A DNA stretch of 64,000 bases from Aquabacterium sp. OR-4 (GTDB lineage: Bacteria > Pseudomonadota > Gammaproteobacteria > Burkholderiales > Burkholderiaceae_C). The DNA lies in assembly GCF_025290835.2 (NCBI RefSeq), contig NZ_JAOCQD020000001.1:2108001-2172000 (forward strand), in the 5' to 3' direction. The notes under the pieces are model-generated. The model worked only from the letters and a program-made list of their open reading frames with translations, had not been told where the DNA came from and did not search any database. Below, one piece after another: positions 40,680 to 54,966 of this stretch; the first letter of the stretch is position 1, and each line of letters opens with the position of its first letter. Made by a program: the position numbers and the translations under genes.

Positions 40680-43046
40680 TCAGGCGGTGGTCAGGGCCGC
40701 CGGGGTGCTGGCGCCGACGGCCTGGCTGCCCTGGCGGTAGACGCCGCAGCCGATGAACATGTCGTCGCTCAGCGCGGCCACGAAGGCGGTCTTGGCCGTG
40801 GGGCGGCCGTCCTGCGGGTGCGGGCCCTCGTACTCGATCCAGCCCGAGCCGGCGTCGAAGGCCTCCCAGGCCACCTTGAGAAAGTGTTCGGCCTGCACGA
40901 AGCTGATGCCCGGCAGCTCGTGCATCACCTTGCCCAGCAGCTCGGGACGGCCGCCGGCCACCCGGTAGCGGTTGCCGCGGTCGAACACGAACAGGAACAT
41001 GTCGCGGTCGACCCACGGCCCGTCGGCGGTGTTGAAGACCTGCATCGCCACCTCCACGCCCACCTCCTGCGCGTGCATCAGCGCGCGCTCGACCATCTCG
41101 CGGGCCTCGTCGGCCGTGCCCTGGCGCAGGCGCATGCTCGACACCGCCAGGCGCAGCGCCTCGGCCTGGCTCGACAAGGTCTTGGCGGCCTGCGCCGAGC
41201 GCTCCACCGCCACCGCGTTCTCGCGCGTGATGTCGTCCAGCGCGGCCACACCCTGGCTCACCGCCTCCAGCCCGTGGCTCTGCTCGACGCTGGCCTCGGC
41301 CATGCTGCGCAGGCGCTGCGACACCTCCTGCGCGCTGCCGGCCATGGTGTCGAGCAGGCCGCTGGCCTCCTGGATGCGCACCGAGGCATCGCCCACCTGG
41401 GTGGTGGTCTGCTCGATCAGCTCGCGCACCTCGGCCGCGGCCTCGGCGCAGCGCTGGGCCAGCTTGCGCACCTCGGCGGCCACCACCGAGAAGCCGCGCC
41501 CGGCCTCGCCGGCCTTGGCCGCCTCGATCGAGGCGTTCAGCGCCAGCAGATTGGTCTGGAAGGCGATGTCGTCGATGACGCCGTTGATCTCGGCCACGCG
41601 CCGGGCGCTGACCTCCAGCGTGCGCACCGATTCCACCGTTTCGCCCATCGCCCGGCCGCCGGCCTCGACATGCTCGCGCAGGTGGTTGGTGAGCGTATCC
41701 AGGGTCTGCGCGGCCTCGGCGTGGGCGCGGGCCTCCTGGCTCAGGCGGTCGACCGCACCCACCGATTCGCGCAGGCTGCTGGCCTGGCGCTCGGTGCGCT
41801 GGGCCAGCGCCTGGCCGTCTTCGGCCACCGCCTGGCCGGCCTGGCCCACGCGCACCGCGCTGCTGCGGATCTCGGCCACCAGCGAGGACAGGCGCTCGCT
41901 CATGCGCTCGACGCGCTGGCCCACCTGGGCCAATTCGTCGGCCCCCTTGACATCGACGGTGTGCGCCAGATCGCCGTCGGCCACGGCGCGCATGCCGGCG
42001 TCCAGCACCGACAGGGTCTGCAGCGTGGACTGCACCAGGGCCATGCCCAGGTAGGCCACCGCCGCCAGCGCCAGCAGGCACAGCAGGCACAGCAGCAGCG
42101 CATTGCGGCGCGCCTGCGCGGCGCGCTCATCGAGCAGGCCGTCCAGGCGCTGGGCCACCTCGGCACCCACGCGCAGCGCGTCGGCCATGGCGGCATCGGC
42201 GGCGGCCAGGAAGGCCGGCCTGGCCTCGGGCGGCGCCGCTTCGGCAAAGGCCTGGGTGGCCAGGCCGGCCAGGCGCTCGCTGCTGGCGCGCCCGGGCTGC
42301 CAGCTGGCGGGCGGCGGCTCGCCAGCGCGGGTCAGTGCCTCCACCTCCACGCGCATGGCATCCAGCTGCCGCTCCAGCGCATGCACCACCCACTGCGTGC
42401 CGGTGCGCGCCTCGGCGCGCTCGGTGCCGGTGGTGGCCAGCAGCGCCGCGCGGGCCTGCACGCCGGCCACGTTGCCCGCCCAGGCGGCGGTGCGCTGCGT
42501 GGCCATCAGCATCAGCTCGTAGGTGTCGGCCTGGGGATCGAGGATCAGGCCCGAGCGCTCGGACACCATCTGCAGCATCTGCATCATGGCCGCCACCTGC
42601 GCCGCGGCGGTGGCTTCGCCGGCCTGGCCGGCGGCCAGCTGGCGCAGACCGTCGCGGTGCGGCTGCCACAGCGTGGCGGCATCGAACAGGCCGGTGGCCT
42701 GCACCTGGCGATCAAGCTCGGCCACGGCCTCGCCCAGGCGGGTGCGGGCCTGGGTGCGGGCGTCGTCCAGGCCGGCCTCGCCAGACTGGCGGCGCTGGTG
42801 CAGCGCGGCCAACTGGTGCAGCGCGGCGCTCACCCGCTGCAGCGGGCCGACCACGCGCACGCCCTGCTGCTCGGACGCCGCGACGCGCGCCACCTCGAAC
42901 TGGCCCATCACCTGCAAGGCCAGCAGCAGCACCAGCGGCACCGCCACCAGGGCGGCGGCAAGGCCCAGCTTGACGCTCAGGCGCATGCGGCGCATCCAGC
43001 GCACGCCGGGCCGCAGCAAACGGGAGCCGCGTCGATTGGACGTCAT
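40680..43046 (-). CDS. Methyl-accepting chemotaxis protein with a C-terminal cytoplasmic Cache-like domain (second)
   Basis: 788 residues from the ATG at 43046 (AAGGA seven bases upstream; the in-frame ATG at 43070 overlaps the preceding stop). N-terminal [19 protein letters not shown] echoes the receptor at 33.6 kb. TM1 about 28-50, a helical sensor, TM2 about 316-338, HAMP ([43 protein letters not shown]), signalling tip [44 protein letters not shown]. The C-terminal extension repeats the Cache-like pattern [53 protein letters not shown]. It follows another receptor gene in the same unit. Confidence 0.9.
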
Positions 43047-43069
43047 GATGTTTCCTTCTGCCGCGGCCA

Positions 43070-45100
43070 TCAGCCGAGCACGAAATGCTGGATCGAGCGC
43101 TTCAGGCTGTCGCCCTGGTCGCGCAGCTCGGCCGAGGCGTCGGACAGCTGGGCCACCACGCGCGCATTGCCACCCACCGTGCCCTCGACATCGCGGGCGA
43201 TCAGCAGCACCTCGCGCGACTGGCCCAGGCCGCTGCGCACCATGGTCACGATCTCGCCGACGATCAGGTTCACGGCCTCGATCTCGCGGTCGGTGCGGCC
43301 CACATGCTCACCCGCCCGCTCGGTGATGCGGCTGCCCTCCTCGATCTCGTCAATCGAGGCGTCCAGGATGCGGCGGATGCGCTGGGCCGCCGCCTCGCTG
43401 CGGTTGGCCAGCGTGCGCACCTCCTGCGCCACCACCGCAAAGCCCTTGCCGGCGGCGCCGGCACGGGCGGCCTCGACCGAAGCATTCAGCGCCAGCAGCT
43501 TGGTCTGGTAGGCCACCGCTTCGACCATGGCCACCACCTGCGCGATCTCGCGGCTCTTGCCCTGCAGCGAGCGCATGCGGGTCTGCAGCTCGGCCATGGT
43601 GCGGCGGCTGCGCTGGGCCTCGATGCGCATGGTGCCCACATGGCCCGAAACCCGCTCGACGGCCACGCCGCACTGGTCCATCGCGTCGGTGAAGCTCTCG
43701 GTGCGCCCGACCACGTTGCCAATGGCGGTGCGGATGTCACCCGAGCTGCCCGACAGGCCGGCATTGCCGGTGGCCACCTCGCGCGAGGCATGCGAGACGG
43801 CTGACACGCCCTGGGTCACGGCCTCGAACATGGCCGACATCTTGGTGGCCGCCTGGCCCAGCGTGTTGAGGGCATGGCCGATCTCGTCGCGGCCATGTCC
43901 GGTGGGGCGGATCGACAGGTTGCCGCGGCCCAGCTCGTCGACCTGCGCGCACAGAAATTTCAGGCCGCCCACCATCACCTTGTACAGGCACACCAGCACA
44001 TACAGCGTGATCAAGATGCCGGCGCCGATGCCCACCCACTCGGCCAGCAGGTGGCGGCGCAGCTCGGCCTCGCGCGCCACCAGCCGGTGCTCGATCTCGC
44101 CCAGGCCCAGGGTGTCGATGTGGGCGCCGGCGTTGAGCGCCAGCTGGCCCAGCTGGCGGTAGCTGGCCAGCGTCATGTCGCCGCTGCCGTGGCGGCTGCG
44201 TGCCACGGCGCCGGTGGCATCGAGCAGGCGGTCGATGACCAGCAGCTGCTCGTCCAGCAGTGCCGCCTGCGCCGGCAGCACGGCGCGGGCGCGCTGGAAC
44301 TGCGGCCGCGCAATGGCCAGCACGGTGCGCGCCTCGACCAGGCGGTCGGCCACCTCGCGCGACAGGCCGCTGCCCGGTGCCTGCGGCCAGTGCAGCAGCA
44401 TGCTTTCGAGCAGGAAGGCCACGCGCAGGGTCAGGTCGGAGGCCGGGTTGATCAAGCCGTCACGCAACAGCCGGCTGCCGGGGTCGCCGTCGACGCTGGG
44501 CGTCCAGTGCGCCACATAGGCCGAGCGCAGCGTGTGCACGGCCTGCGCATAGTCGTGCACCGCCTGGGTGCGGGCGCCGGCCATGCCCGGCTGGGCGGCC
44601 GCCACCGCATGCTTGCGGCGGGCCGTGACCTCGTTGCGGCGCTGCAGCGTCTCCTGCATCTGCGCGGCCAGGGCCGGCACGGTCAACACATCGTCGGCCA
44701 GCAGGCGCTGCACGGCAGCCATGTCGCTGGCCTCGCGCTCGAACGCGGCATCCAGTGTGCGCGAGTCGGCACCGGCTTCGGCCATCAGGGTCAGGCGAGC
44801 AAGGTCGCGCACCGAGCGCTCCAGCACGGCCAGCGTGCGCACATGGCCCACACCCGCCACCGCGGCACTGGCGGTGTGCCAGGACGCGGCTGCCTGCGCC
44901 AGCAGCTGGGCCAGCATGGTGCCCAGCAGGCCCAGCACCAGCACGCTGACCACCAGCGCCTTGACGCGCAGCGGCTGGTTGCGCAGCAGGCGCACGCCGG
45001 GGCCCCACACGCCGTGGTACCGCATCCAGTCGGGCATCTGCAAACACTGCCGCAGCGAGGCGCCCAGCGCAGACCATGAGGGGAGCGGTCGTACAGACAT
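43070..45100 (-). CDS. Methyl-accepting chemotaxis protein, conventional topology
   Basis: 676 residues. Cytoplasmic start [21 protein letters not shown]1 about 48-70, periplasmic helical sensor of about 280 residues, TM2 about 353-378 ([20 protein letters not shown]), HAMP ([33 protein letters not shown]) and a signalling hairpin with [43 protein letters not shown]. It ends soon after the hairpin, without the Cache-like extension. Its stop overlaps the following receptor's frame (TGATG), so the two are co-transcribed, behind a minus-strand sigma-28-like promoter. Confidence 0.92.
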
Positions 45101-45198
45101 CGGCTGTTGTTTCCGTAGAAGAGATCAGTGATCGCCACGGCCCGACAACAGCAAACGGGCACACCCGACCAGGCGGGGGGTGGGGGAGCTCTGCGGAG

Positions 45199-45225
45199 AT
45201 TTCGGCCGGCGCCGCGACAACTTGA
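45199..45225 (-). promoter_or_regulatory. Sigma-28 (FliA)-type promoter for the minus-strand receptor genes
   Basis: On the minus strand TCAAGTTG (45225-45218), 11 bases, GCCGAAAT (45206-45199). The E. coli consensus is TAAAGTTT-N11-GCCGATAA; each half matches 6 of 8 with exact spacing. The leader to the ATG at 45100 would be about 90 bases. The 300-base divergent gap (45101-45400) holds no gene. Confidence 0.55.
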
Positions 45226-45280
45226 ACCGGCGCTCAATGGGGTGCCGCAGGCCGCCGGGCCCAGCCGCCACACGCCTCGC

Positions 45281-45307
45281 TCAACTTCGCCGGACGCCGG
45301 TCGATAA
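45281..45307 (+). promoter_or_regulatory. Sigma-28 (FliA)-type promoter for the che operon
   Basis: TCAACTTC, 11 bases, GTCGATAA: 5 of 8 in the -35 half and 7 of 8 in the -10 half of TAAAGTTT-N11-GCCGATAA, with exact spacing. The leader to the first gene of the operon is about 85 bases. It faces away from the similar minus-strand match, so both arms of this chemotaxis locus appear to be flagellar class-3 units. Confidence 0.65.
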
Positions 45308-45400
45308 CGGGCCGTGACCTCGGGAATCAGGCTGTATCCCGTGCTGTCGCTCCGCCTTGCACCTGTCCGGTGCTTCTGCAATGTTCCGGAGCCACGCCCG

Positions 45401-46585
45401 ATGTCCTCGAGCGAGCAGTACGTCAAAACAGCCTTTGCCGACACCGTGGCCACGCCCACGGCGACCGAACGCTGGCGCAGCCTGCGCATGCCCTTGATCA
45501 TGGCCTGTGCCACCGCGATGCCAGCGCTGCTGCTGCACGCGGTGGGCTGGTGGGCCGCGGGGCCCTCGTGGCTGCTGGCCGGCTGGGCGCTGTGGCGGGC
45601 CCACAGCGCCACGCTGCGCGCCGGGCCGGTGGCCGCCGCCGAGGCCGCCCGCCACCGCGGCGTGGACGACAGCGAATTCGCACGCCTGGCCACCCAGATC
45701 CTGCCGGTCTGGCGGCGCAACCTGGAGGCGGCGCGCAGCCACTCCGAGCGCAGCATGACGCAGATGCTGGAGAGCTTTGCCGGCGTGTCCGGCCAGCTCG
45801 ACGAGGCGCTGTCGATCTCGGACAACGCGCCGACGCTGGAGCTCGGCGCCCATGCCGAGCTGATGGAGACGCACCGCCCGCAGCTCGACGAGCTGCTGAG
45901 TGTGGCGCGCAAGGCCATGGCGGCCAAGACCGCGATGCAGGGCGTGCTCAACGAGTTCTCGCGCGAACTGTCCGAGATGGCCATGCTGACCCGCGATGTG
46001 CAGAACATCGGCCGCGCGACGCACCTGCTGGCGCTGAACACCTCGGTCGAGGCCACGCGCGCCGGCACCAGCAGCGGCGGCTTCATGGCCGTGGCGCAGG
46101 AGGTGCGCACGCTGGCCGGCAACTCGCGCGAGGCCGGCAGCCGGTTGTCGCGCCACGTCACCGTGCTGCAGGAGCGCCTGACCGCGATGCAGCTGGATGC
46201 CCGCCGCGTCGAGGCCGACGACGAGGAGCTGCGCCTGTGCATCGAGCAGGGCGCGCGCAGCCTGGTCACCGCGCTGCTCGACAGCCTGGGCGACGCCACC
46301 CGCGCCACGCGCAACCTGCAGGGCGTGGGCCGGCAGCTGCAGGGCGAGCTCGAGCGCGTGCTGGTGGGCATGCAGTCGCAGGACCGCCAGAGCCAGATGA
46401 TCGAGTCGGTCACCGACGACATGGCGCGGGCCAGCGCCCACCTGCAAGGCGCGCGCGACCCGCTGGTGGCCTCGCCGCCCGACTGGCTGGCCCGCCTGGA
46501 AGAGAGCTACACCATGGAAGACATGCGCAGCAGCCACCACGGCACCACCGCGGTCGACCAGAACAGCAGCGTGGAGTTCTTCTGA
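45401..46585 (+). CDS. Membrane-anchored receptor-like protein with CheZ-like motif, first gene of the che operon
   Basis: 394 residues from the ATG at 45401. Two adjacent hydrophobic stretches (about 30-66) give a membrane hairpin with almost no periplasmic domain. A coiled-coil region carries a degenerate chemoreceptor tip, [44 protein letters not shown] (about 202-246). Further on, LVGMQSQDRQSQMIESVTDDM has Asp328 and Gln332 in D-x-x-x-Q spacing, the pattern of the CheZ phosphatase active site (D143/Q147 in E. coli), and the chain ends SSVEFF, comparable in kind to the aromatic CheY-binding tail of CheZ. It directly precedes cheY and no separate cheZ is present. Phosphatase function is inference; a receptor-only or adaptor role is possible. 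Confidence 0.8.
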   Translation: MSSSEQYVKTAFADTVATPTATERWRSLRMPLIMACATAMPALLLHAVGWWAAGPSWLLAGWALWRAHSATLRAGPVAAAEAARHRGVDDSEFARLATQILPVWRRNLEAARSHSERSMTQMLESFAGVSGQLDEALSISDNAPTLELGAHAELMETHRPQLDELLSVARKAMAAKTAMQGVLNEFSRELSEMAMLTRDVQNIGRATHLLALNTSVEATRAGTSSGGFMAVAQEVRTLAGNSREAGSRLSRHVTVLQERLTAMQLDARRVEADDEELRLCIEQGARSLVTALLDSLGDATRATRNLQGVGRQLQGELERVLVGMQSQDRQSQMIESVTDDMARASAHLQGARDPLVASPPDWLARLEESYTMEDMRSSHHGTTAVDQNSSVEFF

Positions 46586-46682
46586 TGCCGCAGCCCCACG
46601 CCCATGCCCCGCCACGCGCACCGCGTGCGCAACCCCTCTCAATCAACCAGTCAACAAATCCCTGTACCCAAGGAGCCCTGAC

Positions 46683-47048
46683 ATGAGCAAGACCGTGATG
46701 GTGGTGGACGACTCCGGAAGCTTCCGCACCGTGGTCAAGCTGGCGCTGCAGAAGGCGGGCTACGCCGTGGTGGAGGCCTGCGACGGCCAGGACGCCTGCG
46801 GCAAGCTCGGCGGCGCCAAGATCAACCTGATCGTGTGCGACGTGAACATGCCCAACATGGACGGCCTGTCCTTCCTGCGCCATGTGCGGGCCAGCGTGGC
46901 GCACAAGTTCACGCCGGTGATCATGCTCACCACCGAGAGCCAGGAGGCCAAGAAGGCCGAAGGCCGCGCGGCCGGTGCGCGCGCCTGGATCACCAAGCCC
47001 TTCCAGCCCTCGCAGCTGGTGGACGCCGTCAACCGCCTGTGCGTGTGA
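46683..47048 (+). CDS. cheY: Chemotaxis response regulator CheY
   Basis: 121 residues, a stand-alone receiver domain. Acidic pocket Asp9/Asp10, phospho-acceptor Asp53 in LIVCDVNMPNMDG, switch Thr83 in VIMLTTES, Lys105 in WITKPF. AAGGAG lies eight bases upstream of the start. Phosphorylated by the CheA encoded two genes downstream; the output is either the flagellar motor or another CheY-type target. Second gene of the operon. Confidence 0.95.
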   Translation: MSKTVMVVDDSGSFRTVVKLALQKAGYAVVEACDGQDACGKLGGAKINLIVCDVNMPNMDGLSFLRHVRASVAHKFTPVIMLTTESQEAKKAEGRAAGARAWITKPFQPSQLVDAVNRLCV

Positions 47049-47052
47049 TGCC

Positions 47053-47370
47053 ATGCCGGCCACCCTCAGCCTGAGCGGCGAGCTCACCATTGCGCAGGCC
47101 GCGGCCGTGCGCGACCAGCTGCAGGCGGTACTCGACACCGCCCCCGATGGCCTGGCGCTCGACCTGTCGGCGCTGGAGTCCTTCGACAGCGCCGGCCTGC
47201 AACTGCTGCTGGCCACCCGCCACAGCCTGGCCGAACGCGGCATGCCGCTCATCCTGGGCGCCTGCAGCGCCCCGGTGCGCGACGCGCTGCGCGTGTACGG
47301 TCTGCAGGCGCTGGCCGATGGCAGCGCGGCAGCCGCCTCCACACCCACCGACCGAGCGAGCGACGCATGA
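47053..47370 (+). CDS. STAS-domain protein in the che operon
   Basis: 105 residues, starting five bases after the cheY stop and overlapping cheA by four bases. The anti-anti-sigma/STAS fold is seen in LSLSGELTIAQAAAVRDQLQAVLDTAPDGLALDLSALESFDSAGLQLLLATRHSLAERG; Ser46 in FDSAGLQ is the position phosphorylated in SpoIIAA-type proteins. There is no partner serine kinase in the window. STAS proteins accompany a subset of chemosensory operons but their role there is unclear. Confidence 0.88.
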   Translation: MPATLSLSGELTIAQAAAVRDQLQAVLDTAPDGLALDLSALESFDSAGLQLLLATRHSLAERGMPLILGACSAPVRDALRVYGLQALADGSAAAASTPTDRASDA

Positions 47371-49625
47371 GCCACAGCAACGACGACGACGAGATCATCG
47401 CCGCGGCCCGGGTGGGTTTTCTCGACGAAGCGCAGGAAATGCTGACGCAGTTCGAGACCGCGCTGCTGGTGATGGAGGTCAACCCCACCGACAGCGAGAA
47501 CCTGAACGCCGCCTTCCGCGCCGCCCACACCATCAAGGGCAGCGCCGGCCTGTTCGGCTTTGATGCGGTGGTGGCCTTCACCCACGAGGCCGAGACGCTG
47601 CTCGAATCGCTGCGCTCGGGCGAGCTGGCGGTCAACGAGCGGGTCACCGCGCTGCTGCTGCAAAGCCGCGACCAGATGGAGCGCCTGCTCGACGAGGTGC
47701 GCTCGGGCACGCAAGACCCGGCGCTGGCCGCCACCAGCCAGTCGCTGGGCGCCGAGCTGCGGGCGCTGCGCGAGGGCGCCGATGCGCCCGCCGCCGCGGC
47801 AGCCGCCGCCGGCCCGGCCGCCGCGGCCGAGGCCGAGGCGGCCATTGGCGCCGAGGGCGTCTGGCACCTGTCGCTGCGCTTTGGCGGCGATGCGCTGCGC
47901 AACGGCCTCGACCCGCTGTCCTTCATCCGCTACCTCGACACGGTGGGCCACGTGCAGGCCATCCAGCTGCTGGCCGACGCCATTCCGCCGCTGGCCCAGC
48001 TCGACCCCGAGTCCTGCCATGTGGGCGTGGAGATCCGGCTCGACAGCGGCGCCACGCGCAGCGCCATCGAGGACGTGTTCGCGTTCTGCGCCGACGACTG
48101 CGACATCGCCCTGCTGGCGCCCGACGCCAGCCCGGCCGACTACGCCGCCCTGCTCGAGCGCCGCGCCCCCACGCCCGATGCCCACACCGACCTGCTGGCG
48201 CTGTGGGCCGGCATGGGCCTGACGCTGCCGCTGCGCACCGCGGCACCGGCGGCCGGCGCCGGCGGCGCCAGCGCTGCAGCGGTGGCCGCGCCATCGCCGC
48301 AGATCGAGCGCCGCGCCGAGCCGGCCGACCCCGCCGCGGCCGACCGCCGCGACGCCGAGGCCGAGCGCCGCGGGGCCACCAAGGACCGCCGTGTCGGCGC
48401 TGGCGAGGAGGCACGCTTCATCCGCGTGCGGGCCGACAAGCTCGATCGCCTGATCGACCTGATCGGCGAGCTGGTGATCGCCAGCTCGGGCGCCCAGCTG
48501 GTGGCCGAGACCGAGCAGAGCCCGCACTTTGCCGAAGCCGCGCTGCGCATCCACGACCTGGTGCAGGAGGCGCGTGACGGCGCGCTGGGCCTGCGCATGG
48601 TGCCCATCGGCGAAACCTTCTCGCGCTTCAACCGCGTGGTGCGCGATGTCTGCAAGCAGCTGGGCAAGGAGGTCGAGCTGCAGATCACCGGCGGCGAGAC
48701 CGAGCTCGACAAGAGCATGGTCGAGACCATCGCCGACCCGCTGATGCACCTGGTGCGCAACAGCATGGACCACGGCATCGAGACCGCCGAGGAGCGCCTG
48801 GCCGCCGGCAAGCCGGCGCAGGGCCACCTGGTGCTGCATGCCAACCACGAATCGGGCTCGATCGTCATCGAGGTGCGCGACGATGGCCGCGGCCTGAACC
48901 GCGCGCGCATCCTGGCCAAGGCACAGGAGCGCGGCCTGGTGGCCCCCGAGGCGGTGCTCGACGACGACGCCATCTGCCAGCTGATCTTCGCGCCCGGCTT
49001 CTCCACCGCCGCCGCGGTGACCAACCTGTCGGGCCGCGGCGTCGGCATGGACGTGGTCAAGCGCAACATCGAGGCACTGCGCGGGCAGATCCGCATCAGC
49101 AGCGTCGAGGGTGCCGGCACCACGATGCAGATCCGCCTGCCGCTCACGCTGGCCATCATCGACGGCTTTCTCACCAGCGTGGGCGGAGTCAGCTACGTGA
49201 TGCCGCTGGAGCTGGTGGCCGAGTGCATCGAGGTGCCGACCGAGTGCCGCCAGCTGGGCGAACCCGACGACGACGCCGGTGGCCGCGTGGCCGGCCACTT
49301 CGACCTGCGCGGCGAGGTGCTGCCCTTCGTCGACCTGGGCCGCTTCTACCGCCACACGCCGCCCGCCGGCGGCCGGCGCAGTCTCGTGGTGGTGCATGAC
49401 GGCATCACCCGTGTGGGTCTGGTGGTCGACCGCCTGCACGGCGAGCACCAGACCGTCATCAAACCGCTGGGCCAGGTGTTTCAGAACATCCGCGGCCTGG
49501 CGGGCACCACGATCCTGGGCAGCGGCGAAGTTGCGCTGATCCTCGATGTTCCTGCGTTGTTGAACCTGGCCACCGAGCGGCCGAGCCACGGCATGCGCCG
49601 CCTGCCCAGCCGACAGGCGGGCTGA
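47367..49625 (+). CDS. cheA: Chemotaxis histidine kinase CheA
   Basis: 752 residues; the ATG overlaps the STAS stop. P1 (Hpt) with His54 in AAFRAAHTIKGSAGLFGFDAV. At about 165-260 a middle domain (WHLSLRFGGDALRNGLDPLSFIRYLDTVGHV... DDCDIALLAPDAS) takes the place of the classical CheY/CheB-binding P2. An Ala-rich and charged linker precedes P3 (RVRADKLDRLIDLIGELVIASSGAQL), then P4 with N-box LMHLVRNSMDHGIE, G1 DDGRGLN and G2 GRGVGMDVVK, and P5 CheW-like from about 590 (LTLAIIDGFLTSVGGVSYVMPLELVAECIEV). Central kinase of the locus, acting on CheY and CheB. Confidence 0.96.
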   Translation: MSHSNDDDEIIAAARVGFLDEAQEMLTQFETALLVMEVNPTDSENLNAAFRAAHTIKGSAGLFGFDAVVAFTHEAETLLESLRSGELAVNERVTALLLQSRDQMERLLDEVRSGTQDPALAATSQSLGAELRALREGADAPAAAAAAAGPAAAAEAEAAIGAEGVWHLSLRFGGDALRNGLDPLSFIRYLDTVGHVQAIQLLADAIPPLAQLDPESCHVGVEIRLDSGATRSAIEDVFAFCADDCDIALLAPDASPADYAALLERRAPTPDAHTDLLALWAGMGLTLPLRTAAPAAGAGGASAAAVAAPSPQIERRAEPADPAAADRRDAEAERRGATKDRRVGAGEEARFIRVRADKLDRLIDLIGELVIASSGAQLVAETEQSPHFAEAALRIHDLVQEARDGALGLRMVPIGETFSRFNRVVRDVCKQLGKEVELQITGGETELDKSMVETIADPLMHLVRNSMDHGIETAEERLAAGKPAQGHLVLHANHESGSIVIEVRDDGRGLNRARILAKAQERGLVAPEAVLDDDAICQLIFAPGFSTAAAVTNLSGRGVGMDVVKRNIEALRGQIRISSVEGAGTTMQIRLPLTLAIIDGFLTSVGGVSYVMPLELVAECIEVPTECRQLGEPDDDAGGRVAGHFDLRGEVLPFVDLGRFYRHTPPAGGRRSLVVVHDGITRVGLVVDRLHGEHQTVIKPLGQVFQNIRGLAGTTILGSGEVALILDVPALLNLATERPSHGMRRLPSRQAG

Positions 49626-49706: not shown

Positions 49707-51884
49707 ATGTTCCAGATCAAGACCCAACGCCAGGCCATGCAAGACGCGCAGGCCGAACAGCAACGCATCGAGCATTCGTTCGAGCGTGTCATGGCCGAGG
49801 CCGCCGCCGGCCGCCTTGACGTGCGCATCCAGGCCTCGGCCGTGCCGCCGGCCCTGGCCGGCAGTGCACGCGAGTTCAACCGCCTGCTCGACACGCTGCA
49901 GGGCATGCAGCGCGACATGGGCCGCATGACCGACGAGCACGCCCGCGGCGACATCGACGTGGTGATCGATGCCCCGCGCTACAACGGCGACTTCCGCGCC
50001 ATCGCCCAGGGCATCAACGACCTGGTGGCCGCGCACATCGCCGTCAAGAAGCTGGCCATGGGCGTGGTGGCCGAGTTCGGCCGCGGCAACTTCGACGCGC
50101 CGATGCCCCAGCTGCCGGGCAAGAAGGCCTTCATCAACGACGTCATCGAGACGGTGCGTGGCAACCTCAAGGGCCTGATCACCGAGATGACCCACATGAG
50201 CGCCGAGCATGCGCGTGGCGACATCGACGTGGTGATCGACCCGCAGCGCTTCGACGGCGACTTCCGCACCATGGCCTGCGGCGTCAACGACATGGTGGCT
50301 GCGCACATCGCGGTGAAGAAGCTGGCCATGGGCGTGATCGCCGAGTTCGGCCGCGGCAACTTCGACGCCCCGCTCGAAAAGCTGCCGGGCAAGAAGGCCT
50401 TCATCAACGACACCATCGAGACGGTGCGCGGCAACCTCAAGGGCCTGATCGCCGAGATGAACCACATGGCCGTCGAGCACGACCGTGGCGAGATCGACGT
50501 GGTGGTCAACGCCCAGCGCTTCCAGGGTGACTTCAGCACCATGGCCCAGGGCATCAACGACATGGTGGCCGCCCACATCGGCGTGAAGAAGCTGGCCATG
50601 GGCGTGATCGCCGAGTTCGGCCGCGGCAACTTCGATGCCCCGCTCGAGAAGCTGCCGGGCAAGAAGGTGTTCATCAACAACACCATCGAGCAGGTGCGCA
50701 GCAACCTGCGTGCGCTGATCGACGACACCACCATGCTGTCGCAGGCGGCGGTGGCCGGCAAGCTCGACACGCGCGCCGACGCGTCGCGCCACGGCGGTGG
50801 CTTCCGCCGCATCATCGAAGGCATCAATGGCACGCTGGACGCCATCGTGGCCCCGGTGCAGGACCTGCAGGCCGTGCTGCAGCGCATGGAAGGCGGCGAC
50901 ATCTCGCTGGGCATGACCAACGAGTACCAGGGCGCCTTTGCCGACCTCAAGGCGGTGCTCAACGCCACGCTGGCCCGGCTGTCGTCCACGCTGGCCGATG
51001 TCAATGCCGCGGCACTGGCCCTGACCTCGGCCGCCGGCCAGGTGTCGAGCACCTCGCAGTCGCTCAGCCAGGGCGCCTCAGAGCAGGCCGCCAGCGTGGA
51101 GGAGACCACCGCCTCGCTGCAGGAGATGGCCAGCTCGGTCAAGCAGAACGCCGACAACGCCAACGTCACCGACGGCATGGCCACCAAGGCCGCCCGCGAG
51201 GCCGGTGAAGGCGGCGAGGCCGTGGCGCGCACCGTGGAGGCGATGAAGAGCATTGCCACCAAGGTCTCGATCATCGACGACATCGCCTACCAGACCAACC
51301 TGCTGGCGCTCAACGCGGCCATCGAGGCAGCGCGAGCCGGCGAGCACGGCAAGGGCTTTGCCGTGGTGGCCGCCGAGGTGCGCAAGCTGGCCGAGCGCAG
51401 CCAGGTGGCGGCGCAGGAGATCGGCCAGCTGGCCGGCAGCTCGGTGCGCCTGGCCGAGCAGGCCGGCGACGTGCTGACCCGCATGGTGCCCACCATCGGC
51501 AAGACCAGCGAGCTGGTGCAGGAGATCTCGGCCGCCAGCGGCGAGCAAAGCGGCAGCATCGGCCAGATCACCAACGCCATGGGCCACCTCAACAGCGCCA
51601 CGCAGCAAAACGCCTCGGCCAGCGAGGAGCTGTCGGCCACGGCCGAGGAGCTGTCGGGCCAGGCCGCCCAGCTGCAGGAGATGATGGCCTTCTTCAAGCT
51701 GCAGGGCGACGCCGGCGGTGGCCACGCGCCGCGCGCGGCCGGCCGCAGCGAGAGCGTGCGTCAGGCCGCACCGCGCATGGCCGAGCAGTCCAGCGCGCGC
51801 AGCAGCAGCGGCCAGGGTGGCATGCGCTGGTCGCGTGCCAGCGGCCATGCAGCGGTGGACGAGGCCGCCTTCGGCCGCTTCTGA
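49707..51884 (+). CDS. Soluble methyl-accepting chemotaxis protein with tandem HAMP-like repeats
   Basis: 725 residues, with no membrane segment, so a cytoplasmic receptor. CAGGAG lies seven bases upstream. Residues 71-340 are three consecutive 90-residue units; each contains RGDIDVVID...GDF...GIND and [12 protein letters not shown]...[10 protein letters not shown] blocks that look like two HAMP modules. Single HAMP-like modules also precede (about 30-60) and follow (about 350-430) the repeats. The signalling hairpin starts near 435; its tip is [44 protein letters not shown] (about 522-565). The C-terminus is Ser/Gly/Arg-rich and ends AAFGRF. No PAS, GAF or Cache sensor is visible. It lies between cheA and cheW. 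Confidence 0.92.
49917..50726 (+). repeat. Three 270-base in-frame tandem repeats in the receptor gene
   Basis: Units at 49917-50186, 50187-50456 and 50457-50726 are exactly 90 codons each with no insertions. The second half of each is the most alike, for example GTGATCGCCGAGTTCGGCCG recurs in units 2 and 3. The nucleotide similarity suggests recent duplication or ongoing homogenisation, and copy number could vary by recombination. Confidence 0.9.
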
Positions 51885-51917: not shown

Positions 51918-52466
51918 ATGCAGGCAACAACCCACACCCCCACCGCCAGCGCGGCTGCGGCCGCGGCCGCGGCCAGCAGTGGCGCACCCGCCGTGCAGAT
52001 GCTGCGCTTTGCGGTGGGTGAAGAACGTTTTGCGGTGCGCATCGACGCGGTGCGCGAGATCCTGGAGGTGGCGCGCACCACGCCCCTGCCCCTGATGCCG
52101 AGCTTCGTGCGCGGCGTGATGAACCTGCGCGGCGCGGTGGTGCCGGTCATCGACCTGGGCGCCCGCCTGGGCCTGGACCCGTCCACCGTGGGCCGCCGCA
52201 GCTGCGTGGTGATCGTCGAGACCAGCGGCAATGCCGAGGTGCCGGCGATGCGCCTGGGCATGCTGGTGGACGCGGTCTACGAGGTCTTCGATGCCCTGCC
52301 CGACGCGCTGGAATCGGTGCCGCGCCTGGGCACGCGCATCGATCCGGCCTTCATCCGCAGCATGGCCCGGCTGCGCGGCCAGACCACCGCCGAGCTCAAC
52401 CTCGACGCGGTGCTCGAAGCCGGCGCGCTGGCCGCGCTGATCGACGCGCACCAGGGCCTGCACTGA
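51918..52466 (+). CDS. cheW: Chemotaxis coupling protein CheW
   Basis: 182 residues: an Ala-rich leader of about 30 residues, then the CheW double beta-barrel (MLRFAVGEERFAVRIDAVREILEVARTTPLPLMPSFVRGVMNLRGAVVPVIDLGARLGL, later SCVVIVETSGNAEVPAMRLGMLVDAVYEVFDALPDALE). The NLRG-VVPVIDL signature is complete. Links receptors to CheA. It starts 33 bases after the soluble receptor gene. Confidence 0.95.
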   Translation: MQATTHTPTASAAAAAAAASSGAPAVQMLRFAVGEERFAVRIDAVREILEVARTTPLPLMPSFVRGVMNLRGAVVPVIDLGARLGLDPSTVGRRSCVVIVETSGNAEVPAMRLGMLVDAVYEVFDALPDALESVPRLGTRIDPAFIRSMARLRGQTTAELNLDAVLEAGALAALIDAHQGLH

Positions 52467-52497: not shown

Positions 52498-53292
52498 ATG
52501 ATCTCCAACCGTTCCTTCGAGCTGGTGAGCGGGCTGTTCCACCGCGTCTCCGGCATCCGCCTGACCGACGGCAAGCGCGCGCTGGTGGCCGGCCGGCTGC
52601 AGAAGCTGGCCATGACCCGCGGCCTGAGCGACCTCGACCGCTATGTCGAGCTGCTGGTCAGCGAGAACGACCCCGCCGAGCTGGTGCGCGTGGTCGACAA
52701 GCTCACCACCAACGAGACCTACTTCTTCCGCGAGCCCGAGCACTTCGAGCACCTGAGCCAGCGCCTGGCGGCGCGGCCCAAGGGCGCGGGCGTGTTCCGG
52801 GTGTGGAGCGCGGCCAGCTCCTCGGGCGAGGAGGCCTACAGCATCGCCATGCTGCTGGCCGACAAGATCGGCATCGACGGCTGGGAGATCGTGGGCACCG
52901 ATCTGTCCACCGCGGTGGTCGACACCGCCTGCCGTGGCCTCTACCCGATGGACCGCGCACGCAACATGCCGCCGGTCTACCTCAAGCGCTTTTGCCGCAA
53001 GGGCCAGGGCGAGCACGAGGGCCAGCTGCTGGTGGCGCGCGAGCTGCGCGACCGCGTGGCCTTCGGCTGCGCCAACCTGATGGAGGCACTGCCCGACATC
53101 GGCCTGTTCGACCAGATCTTCCTGCGCAACGTGCTGATCTACTTCGATCCGCCCACCAAGGAGGCCATCGTGCGGCGCGTGGCGGCCAAGCTCAAGCCCG
53201 ACGGCATGCTCTACACCGGGCACGCCGAGTCACTGAACGCGCCGGCCCTGGGGCTGCGCAGCCTGCGACCGGCGGTGTATGCCCTGGCCTGA
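52498..53292 (+). CDS. cheR: Chemoreceptor glutamate methyltransferase CheR
   Basis: 264 residues. N-terminal helical domain (FELVSGLFHRVSGIRLTDGKRALVAGRLQKLAMTRGLSDLDRYVELL), then the S-adenosylmethionine domain with KLTTNETYFFREPEHFEHL, RVWSAASSSGEEAYSIAMLLAD and FLRNVLIYFDPPTKEAIVRRVAAKLKPDGMLYTGHAESL. Methylates receptor glutamates during adaptation; CheB and CheD next door reverse or adjust this. The end overlaps cheD by 14 bases. Confidence 0.96.
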   Translation: MISNRSFELVSGLFHRVSGIRLTDGKRALVAGRLQKLAMTRGLSDLDRYVELLVSENDPAELVRVVDKLTTNETYFFREPEHFEHLSQRLAARPKGAGVFRVWSAASSSGEEAYSIAMLLADKIGIDGWEIVGTDLSTAVVDTACRGLYPMDRARNMPPVYLKRFCRKGQGEHEGQLLVARELRDRVAFGCANLMEALPDIGLFDQIFLRNVLIYFDPPTKEAIVRRVAAKLKPDGMLYTGHAESLNAPALGLRSLRPAVYALA

Positions 53293-53857
53293 GCTGCAGG
53301 TGAGCCCCTTGCACCGCCCCGCGCGGCCCAGCCTGCACCGCGAACCGGACGGCACCACCGCCATGGTGGCGGGCCGCCCGGGCGAGCACCTGACCCTGCT
53401 GCCCGGCCAGTGGCACGTGGGCCGGCATGCGGCGCAGCTGCGCACGCTGCTGGGCTCGTGCGTGTCCATCGTGCTGTGGCATCCGCGCCAGCGCCTGGGC
53501 GCCATGTGCCACTACCTGCTGCCCTCGCGGCGGCGCACGCCGGGCATGGCGCTGGAGGGCCGTTTCGGCGACGAGGCGGTGACGTTGATGGCGCATGCCC
53601 TGCAGCGCCACGGCATCGCGCCGCAGGAGTTCGAGGCCCACCTCTACGGCGGCGCCGACACCATGCCCGACACCGCGGGCGCCAAGTTCAACGTCGGCGA
53701 GCGCAACATCGAGGCCGGCTGGGCCCTGATCGAGCAGCACGGCTTCACCCTGCACGAGGTGGACGTGGGCGACAACATTCCGCGCGCAGTCACGCTGTGC
53801 CTGCGCAGCGGCCAGGTTCAGGTACGCCGCGGCGGCCAGCGCGCGGCCAAGGAGTGA
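53279..53857 (+). CDS. cheD: Chemoreceptor glutamine deamidase CheD
   Basis: 192 residues. Catalytic Cys61 in [14 protein letters not shown] and His78 in [11 protein letters not shown] are 17 apart, as in characterised CheD. Further blocks [10 protein letters not shown] and [47 protein letters not shown] are typical. Deamidates receptor glutamines and can bind CheC/CheY-type partners. The N-terminus is about 30 residues longer than average. Confidence 0.96.
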
Positions 53858-53862
53858 AGGCA

Positions 53863-54966
53863 ATGTCCGTCACCGCATTTGTCATCGACGATTCGGCCGT
53901 GGTGCGCAAGCACCTCACCGAGACCCTGCAGGCCGGCGGCATCGAGGTGCTGGGCAGTGCGGCCGACCCGGTCTTCGCCTGGCCCAAGCTGGCCGCCAAA
54001 TGGCCCGATGTGGTGGTGCTGGATGTGGAGATGCCGCGCATGGACGGCATCACCTTCCTGCGCAAGATCATGGCCGAGCGGCCCACGCCGGTGGTGATGT
54101 GCTCCACGCTCACCGAGCGCGGCTGCGAGACCACCATGCAGGCGCTGGCGGCCGGCGCGGTGGGCTTCGTCACCAAGCCCAAGCTGGGCCTGCGCGAGTT
54201 TCTGTCCGACCGCAGCAACGGCCTGGTGGATGCGGTGCGCGCCGCGGCCCGCGCCAACCTGCGCGCACTGCCGCGCAGCCCGGCCGGGGCCGCGGCCCCC
54301 GCCGCCGGCTCGGCCGCCACGCCCGGCACGCCAGCCGCGGCGCGCGCGCCGGCAGCCGCGGTGCATGGCGCCATGGCCGAGACCACCGACCGCGTGGTGG
54401 CCATCGGCATCTCCACCGGCGGCGTGCAGTCGATCGAGGTGGTGCTGCGCCAGCTCGACCGCACCTGCCCCGGCATGGTCATCGTGCAGCACATGCCCAG
54501 CGGCTTCACCGCCTCGTTCGCAACGCGGCTGAACAGCCTGCTCGAGCTGGAGGTGCTGGAGGCCAAGGACGGCGACCGCGTCATCAACGGCCGCGTATTG
54601 ATCGCCCCGGGCGGCAAGCACATGCAGCTCAAGCGCAGCGGCGCGCAGTACGTGGTGGAGGTGCGCGACGGCCCGCTGATCAACCACCACCGGCCTTCGG
54701 TGGACGTGCTCTTCCGCTCGGTGGCGCAGTGCGCCGGGCGCAACGCCATAGGCGTGGTGATGACCGGCATGGGCGACGACGGCGCCCGCGGCCTGCGCGA
54801 GATGCGCGAGGCCGGCGCCGTCACCGCTGCGCAGGACGAGGCCAGCTGCGTGGTCTTCGGCATGCCCGCCGAGGCCATCCGCCTGGGTGGAGCACGCGAC
54901 GTGGTGGCGCTCAACGGCATTGCCGGCTGGGTGCGCCAGGTGGCCCAGCAGCCGGTGACGCGCTGA
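53863..54966 (+). CDS. cheB: Chemotaxis methylesterase/response regulator CheB
   Basis: 367 residues from the ATG at 53863. Receiver domain with Asp10 and phospho-acceptor Asp54 ([13 protein letters not shown]), an Ala/Pro-rich linker (about 140-170), and the methylesterase domain with catalytic Ser184 (GISTGGVQS), His210 ([10 protein letters not shown]) and Asp306 ([11 protein letters not shown]). Removes receptor methyl groups after phosphorylation by CheA. It starts six bases after cheD and is the last gene of the operon, convergent with an MFS gene. Confidence 0.96.

Follow-up and report, generated by a model that had tools for sequence, protein, structure and literature searches.

Which enzyme would end the signal in a chemosensory operon that encodes neither CheZ, CheC nor CheX? 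The question is raised by an operon in the window analysed here, a stretch of 64,000 nucleotides from Aquabacterium sp. OR-4. Its genes stand in the order P0001 gene, cheY, STAS gene, cheA, mcp, cheW, cheR, cheD, cheB. For the product of the first gene, P0001, an earlier note had proposed anchored dephosphorylation of CheY-P. The features of the region, all on the + strand, are as follows.

45401..46585 (+): receptor-like protein P0001, 394 amino acids (ORF call, Pfam, homologues, AlphaFold)
45461..45619 (+): two-helix hydrophobic hairpin of P0001, spanning residues 21-73 with no intervening sensor domain (AlphaFold)
45998..46120 (+): hairpin tip of the receptor type, around residues 200-240 (Pfam, AlphaFold, conservation in 76 rows)
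46373..46396 (+): motif Q325-x-x-D328-x-x-x-Q332, in register with the CheZ motif (sequence, alignments)
46475..46582 (+): C-terminal region, made up of helix 359-379 and a low-confidence tail with the end V391-E-F-F394 (AlphaFold, alignments)
46683..47048 (+): cheY, stand-alone receiver, 121 amino acids, proposed substrate (PF00072)
47053..47370 (+): STAS-domain protein, 105 amino acids (PF13466/PF01740)
47367..49625 (+): cheA (Pfam)
49707..51884 (+): MCP, repeated HAMP domains, methylation consensus matched three times (Pfam, consensus scan)
51918..52466 (+): cheW (Pfam)
52498..53292 (+): cheR (Pfam)
53279..53857 (+): cheD, start uncertain, end AAKE without the ELF/EFF tail (Pfam, C-terminus)
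53860..54966 (+): cheB, start uncertain (Pfam)

An alternative in-frame GTG start of P0001 lies at 45314; the six best homologues have 391-397 amino acids. The Rfam scan of 45000-47400 produced no match. Another receptor of the window (40680-43070, - strand) has weak, below cut-off Cache matches behind, not before, its signalling domain.

The observation behind the proposal was confirmed. The sequence QSQDRQSQ occupies residues 325-332, where D328 and Q332 are spaced as in CheZ, the protein ends in SSVEFF, and Pfam identifies the very next gene as cheY. The claim that no separate cheZ, cheC or cheX is present holds for the operon, where Pfam found none of the three among the remaining products, but not for the genome, which contains a canonical cheZ beside a cheY (C2:686766-687338, 199.7 bits). 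A CheX match was also observed in this genome (G000:C3:22210-22518, locus L210, 36.9 bits), and CheC had no match at E 0.01.

A sensor-less relative of chemoreceptors

The only Pfam match in P0001 is MCPsignal (PF00015, residues 180-259, 53.2 bits with the cut-off 34.6), and this domain is matched in all 79 members of set A1 at E up to 10. The single-chain AlphaFold model, built from a 79-row alignment (mean pLDDT 81, pTM 0.50), contains helices 21-48, 50-73, 75-142, 159-220, 226-270, 274-348 and 359-379. Helices 159-220 and 226-270 form the receptor hairpin, the motif sits on the long helix 274-348, and a short break precedes helix 359-379. The pLDDT is under 50 for residues 382-384 and 386-394. 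The membrane hairpin without a sensor domain, as described in the earlier note, is borne out by the model and by Pfam, since MCPsignal is the sole domain and helices 21-48 and 50-73 leave no space between them. A simple hydropathy script recognises one membrane segment in P0001, residues 32-48, the second helix being rich in Trp and Ala. In the 76-row family set described below, the same script finds two segments in 43 members, one in 29, three in two and none in two. The model of a member from a Methylomonas metagenome-assembled genome is weak (pLDDT 75, pTM 0.41, 21 sequences).

The tip and the fold are shared with ordinary chemoreceptors. Comparison of the P0001 model with the PDB placed receptors on top, together with many unrelated long helices; Foldseek gave no match at E 0.001 or better, and the fact that CheZ is not among the matches listed carries no information either way. 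The family profile matched 13 solved sequences, every one a chemoreceptor, and its positions 177-264 correspond to positions 342-429 of receptor I. Unlike chemoreceptors, P0001 has no Pfam match to a sensor domain or HAMP, and the family keeps a fixed spacing between the tip and the motif. The methylation consensus is present in 58 of 79 control receptors versus five of 76 family members (71 lack it), and P0001 has none. Extrapolated from the tip without gaps, D328 falls at the C-terminal methylation helix of Tsr. P0001 is no receptor in the usual sense.

Conservation of the motif and the tail

A protein homologue search yielded 109 proteins, of which 107 were aligned, the long MCPs P0108 and P0109 being excluded. 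Both QxxDxxxQ in the aligned place and the [VI]x[FL]F end were observed in 89 of the 107. The other 18 (P0090-P0107) have neither, although they retain the receptor tip, and no homologue has the motif alone or the tail alone. The 18 proteins, three of them with Sphaerotilus names (P0096, P0099, P0100), form one clade with support 1.0 in a tree of residues 75-324, a region that contains neither the motif nor the tail. Thus the joint absence probably goes back to one event in evolution. Behind the tip, but at another position, 13 of the 18 contain a bare D-x-x-x-Q; therefore the bare pattern is cheap, and it is the fixed place that matters.

A wider alignment of 76 rows, reaching the gammaproteobacteria, combined 40 beta rows, 33 context loci and loci L177-L179. 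Three of the 36 locus candidates were left out, one as partial (L157) and two (L175, L176) with neither motif nor tail. Q325, D328, Q332, F394 and V/I391 are each conserved in 76 of 76 rows, and so are N213, E217 and A218 of the receptor tip. Most neighbours of the three motif residues vary, and positions invariant in the beta members drift; for instance, W104 is retained in 47 of 76, D340 in 44, R343 in 44 and W362 in 47. The tip itself is altered in the beta members while the motif is unchanged. The distance from tip to motif is 111 residues in 64 of 76 members (range 111-117). Hence the prediction that D328 and Q332 might be poorly conserved among orthologues, which would have spoken against the proposal, is contradicted in the close homologues and in the wider set alike.

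Neither the motif nor the tail was found in any of 79 ordinary receptor ORFs. The context loci comprise 1,645 ORFs in any frame, many of them no genes; among these, 32 of 36 family ORFs and seven of ten CheD carry the strict tail, as against none of 1,599 others. The motif is present in 33 of the 36 family candidates. A motif arisen by chance in a coiled coil is thus very improbable and can be dismissed, despite the bare D-x-x-x-Q of the 13 motif-less relatives, given the fixed position, the invariance across beta- and gammaproteobacterial members and the absence of the longer pattern and the tail from the controls.

P0001 belongs to a widespread, conserved family. In this respect the earlier interpretation, partly supported by the conservation, was too narrow, as it concerned one odd gene. 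With the Methylomonas member (L022, motif LQFEDLARQ, end DIELF) as the query, 94 genomes from the class gave matches at 1e-20 in 31 cases, not every match being a member. Distant sampling gave matches in 23 of 150 genomes of the phylum. Of 24 distant loci besides that of the window, scripts found the motif in 14 (13 with the tail) and not in two, and made no call in eight; two of the 14 (L189, L190) are the same places as L161 and L170, already in the 76-row set, and only two (L198, L207) lie outside the class. Named members are annotated as "methyl-accepting chemotaxis protein", "methyl-accepting transducer" or "hypothetical protein".

In many loci the family gene is linked with cheY and cheA. 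Operons annotated as plasmid-borne in Aeromonas (L177) and Pseudomonas (L178) have the gene order of the window, with one extra MCP in Aeromonas, and their members have the motifs SLQFQDRVSQ and TLQFQDRVSQ and TFF ends. The order is presumably also similar to that of P. aeruginosa Che2 and V. cholerae cluster I. In the window and in these two operons cheY directly adjoins the family gene. In Aquabacterium itself there is a paralogue (L016:7839-9092, motif MQFQDINRQ, end RIEFF) 3' of cheA and flanked by cheY genes on both sides. Its cluster includes a triple-CheW protein, and a receptor with two signalling tips is encoded slightly upstream; F9 systems have these two as their signature components according to PMC9321776. 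Family relatives thus occur in F9-type and in CheD-type clusters. The F9-type cluster (G000:C2, about 12-23.5 kb, L008 and L016) encodes a DosM-like double-tip receptor, the triple-CheW protein, CheB, a HEAT-repeat protein and CheY, and continues with CheA, CheY, the paralogue and CheY.

STAS genes stand near the family gene in many clusters. In one of them (L150:9067-11145), a STAS protein comes after the family gene, and next to it a response regulator to which SpoIIE-type phosphatase and kinase-like ATPase domains are fused. This arrangement resembles a partner switch; in other gamma clusters the corresponding position is taken by a STAS gene and a long receiver protein.

Relation to CheZ and CheD

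In CheZ (PF04344), AXXFQ stands directly ahead of DXXXQ, according to PMC7750401, and the family motif aligns in register with this AxxFQ-DxxxQ. As in the family, D-x-x-x-Q of CheZ is on a long helix, in many members after small-x-x-F-[QE], the C-terminus ends in Phe at a similar distance, and the gene is near cheY. The distance from Asp to the C-terminus is 66 residues in all 40 beta rows and 64-70 in 30 CheZ; in the 36 other rows the median is 76.5 (54-93). The pattern [ASG]xxF[QEH]DxxxQ was found in 26 of 76 members (64 with relaxed positions); the context loci have 1,609 other ORFs, and neither any of these nor any of 79 receptors contains it. At position 326 P0001 has Ser, whereas CheZ and 35 of 76 members have Phe. 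The proteins differ in other respects: CheZ of the Aquabacterium genome has 212 amino acids and the end LLASLGF, whereas P0001 combines a membrane hairpin with a receptor tip, and ends of its kind are EFF/ELF. The C-terminus of the family combines a conserved aromatic end and CheZ-like spacing from the motif with a sequence unlike CheZ.

Ungapped comparison of the two profiles placed the six best windows, which overlap, on the diagonal pairing D328 with the CheZ Asp at length 15 (71,540 windows) and at length 21 (68,210). At length 9 the two best windows are on this diagonal, the third to fifth are off it, and the motif-centred window is tenth. The observed maximum was reached by three of 300 column shuffles at length 15 and by none of 300 at lengths 21 and 25; the motif-centred window was reached by 15 of 300. 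However, at length 21 ordinary receptors score 17.48 and the family 19.39. For the beta rows alone, shuffles reach the maximum in 15 of 200 cases (length 15) and 96 of 200 (length 21), and for the gamma rows alone in 18 of 200 and three of 200. The earlier note had suggested profile comparison with CheZ families, and no significant match came of it: one-to-one hhalign of HH-suite gave E 0.34-0.71, and in P0001 the CheZ HMM had no match at E up to 10, subject to the HMMER filters, MCPsignal alone being found. Nor do the three places matched by CheZ in its own genome at E up to 10 include P0001. Because of the receptor scores, the beta shuffles and the HH-suite values, the likeness at the motif level is only suggestive and falls short of proving a common origin; it is equally likely that the two converged on one chemistry. 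That P0001 is a true CheZ orthologue is unsupported by the HMM searches and by hhalign.

Other phosphatases were compared as well. CheC, CheX and FliY share with P0001 the proposed activity and CheD as a companion, and their fold differs from that of P0001. The CheC and CheX HMMs had no match in P0001, MCPsignal alone being found. According to PMC3510030, the motif of CheX is ExxN, unlike that of P0001, and the DxxxQ pair is required for the phosphatase action of CheZ and of NarX. HisKA_3 kinases such as NarX also use DxxxQ for receiver dephosphorylation, but P0001 has no Pfam match to a histidine-kinase domain.

In the earlier note the tail was likened to the CheY-docking end of CheZ. It is indeed conserved, but it is not unique: in gamma clusters CheD often ends in the same [DE][IV]xLF as the family member. 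The [IV]xLF tail, exact or with one residue more, was observed in CheD of L022, L149-L153, L155, L165, L172 and L179, the last from Vibrio. In the context clusters it stands at the very end in seven of ten CheD, and in nine of ten if one further residue is allowed. Among five CheD from genomes with no family match at 1e-20, two have the tail (exact or with one residue more), and in a third it lies five residues from the end. CheD of the window, of Aeromonas L177 and of Pseudomonas L178 are without it. Since CheD shares the tail in many gamma clusters, it need not be specific to CheY, and a role as a dock for CheY only is weakened. Most likely, to judge from these sequences, the tail docks something common to the family protein and CheD. 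CheY as the common partner would explain both tails, and an array protein would do so equally. The tail was also considered as a CheR-binding pentapeptide. The MCP of the operon (AFGRF) and the gamma MCPs (EWEEF) have pentapeptide-like ends of their own, and SVEFF presumably lacks the first aromatic residue of the consensus, so this candidate was rejected.

Two CheZ queries had no match at 1e-6 within the 36 context loci. CheZ is present somewhere in 24 of the 26 genomes examined, out of 31 with family matches. In the other direction, two genomes rated 99% complete each (G098, G112) gave no match in searches for CheZ and CheX, although che clusters of theirs (L166, L172) include a family member. 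The CheZ of the Aquabacterium genome apparently serves another CheY than that of the operon. The simplest picture would be one phosphatase per pathway, with CheZ acting on the flagellar CheY and the family on CheY of other systems.

Candidate functions

We favour, with a probability of roughly 0.6, the reading that P0001 is a CheY-P phosphatase module on a receptor fold, tethered by the membrane hairpin. Firstly, D328 and Q332 would act like the CheZ pair, an acid and an amide that together position the water for attack on the phosphorylated aspartate. Secondly, the flexible C-terminus with its aromatic end would dock a partner, as the C-terminal helix of CheZ docks CheY. Finally, the receptor tip may bring the enzyme to the signalling array or near it, or the hairpin may keep it at the membrane. 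Catalysis, CheY as the partner of the tail and insertion into the array are all three inferred. The reading is favoured by the invariance and joint absence of motif and tail, their absence from the 79 receptors, the orientation of the motif residues away from the hydrophobic face, the windows on the CheZ diagonal, the longer CheZ-like pattern, the distance to the C-terminus, the adjacency of cheY and the two genomes with neither CheZ nor CheX matches. Against this reading stand the HH-suite result, the missing CheZ match of P0001 in Pfam, the receptor scores, the weak signal within subfamilies, the off-diagonal windows at length 9, the commonness of bare D-x-x-x-Q, the frequency of CheZ in the same genomes, the tail of CheD and S326 of P0001. 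In addition, the arrays of the F9-type class, to which the paralogue belongs, are described as cytoplasmic in PMC9321776, which is at odds with membrane tethering of an array enzyme. The phosphatase interpretation is plausible and was strengthened by the conservation test, if unproved.

The best surviving alternative, itself unlikely, is a docking or scaffold protein without catalysis, the motif and the tail making up one binding function for CheY-P or another receiver. Such a protein would gather CheY, possibly together with CheD, at the array or the membrane, or else serve as a phosphate sink. The joint absence of motif and tail fits a single binding function equally well, and CheZ elsewhere in most genomes and the tail common to CheD also agree with it. 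However, binding alone needs no invariant acid-xxx-amide pair in the CheZ register, and Q325, D328 and Q332 are fully conserved amid mostly variable neighbours.

Less probable still is a structural sensor-less receptor, acting as an array scaffold or as an input coupler for the STAS partner, with the motif serving to secure the local packing. The retained tip with its invariant N213, E217 and A218, the exclusively chemoreceptor matches among solved sequences and the nearby STAS genes are consistent with this. On the other hand, the tip is altered in the beta members and the motif is not, and the methylation consensus is rare in the family. Moreover, in a helical projection excluding the motif residues, these face away from the hydrophobic core: Q325 is 127-183 degrees from the hydrophobic face, D328 67-123 and Q332 107-163, depending on the setting. 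The motif is directed away from this face, with D328 on the flank of the helix.

Within the phosphatase reading, a more specific version can be offered only tentatively: an independent array or membrane CheY-P phosphatase on a chemoreceptor coiled coil, with its pair at the place of the methylation sites and, in the gamma members, a tail shared with CheD. In other systems, CheC provides CheY-P feedback on CheD. If the shared-tail reading is true, CheD and the phosphatase would use one partner, in a feedback loop of the CheC-CheD type that does without CheC.

A limited literature search returned no title on a receptor-fold CheY phosphatase and no description of the family; this does not establish absence from print, and the family is undescribed as far as such a search shows. 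With the motif and the tail on a sensor-less receptor relative beside cheY, it may represent an off-switch of bacterial signalling pathways that has been overlooked. If its members are phosphatases, chemosensory clusters seemingly without a signal-ending enzyme have one in a receptor-shaped protein, and the way in which CheY of such clusters is switched off becomes directly testable. The clade without the motif and the tail is a ready natural negative control.
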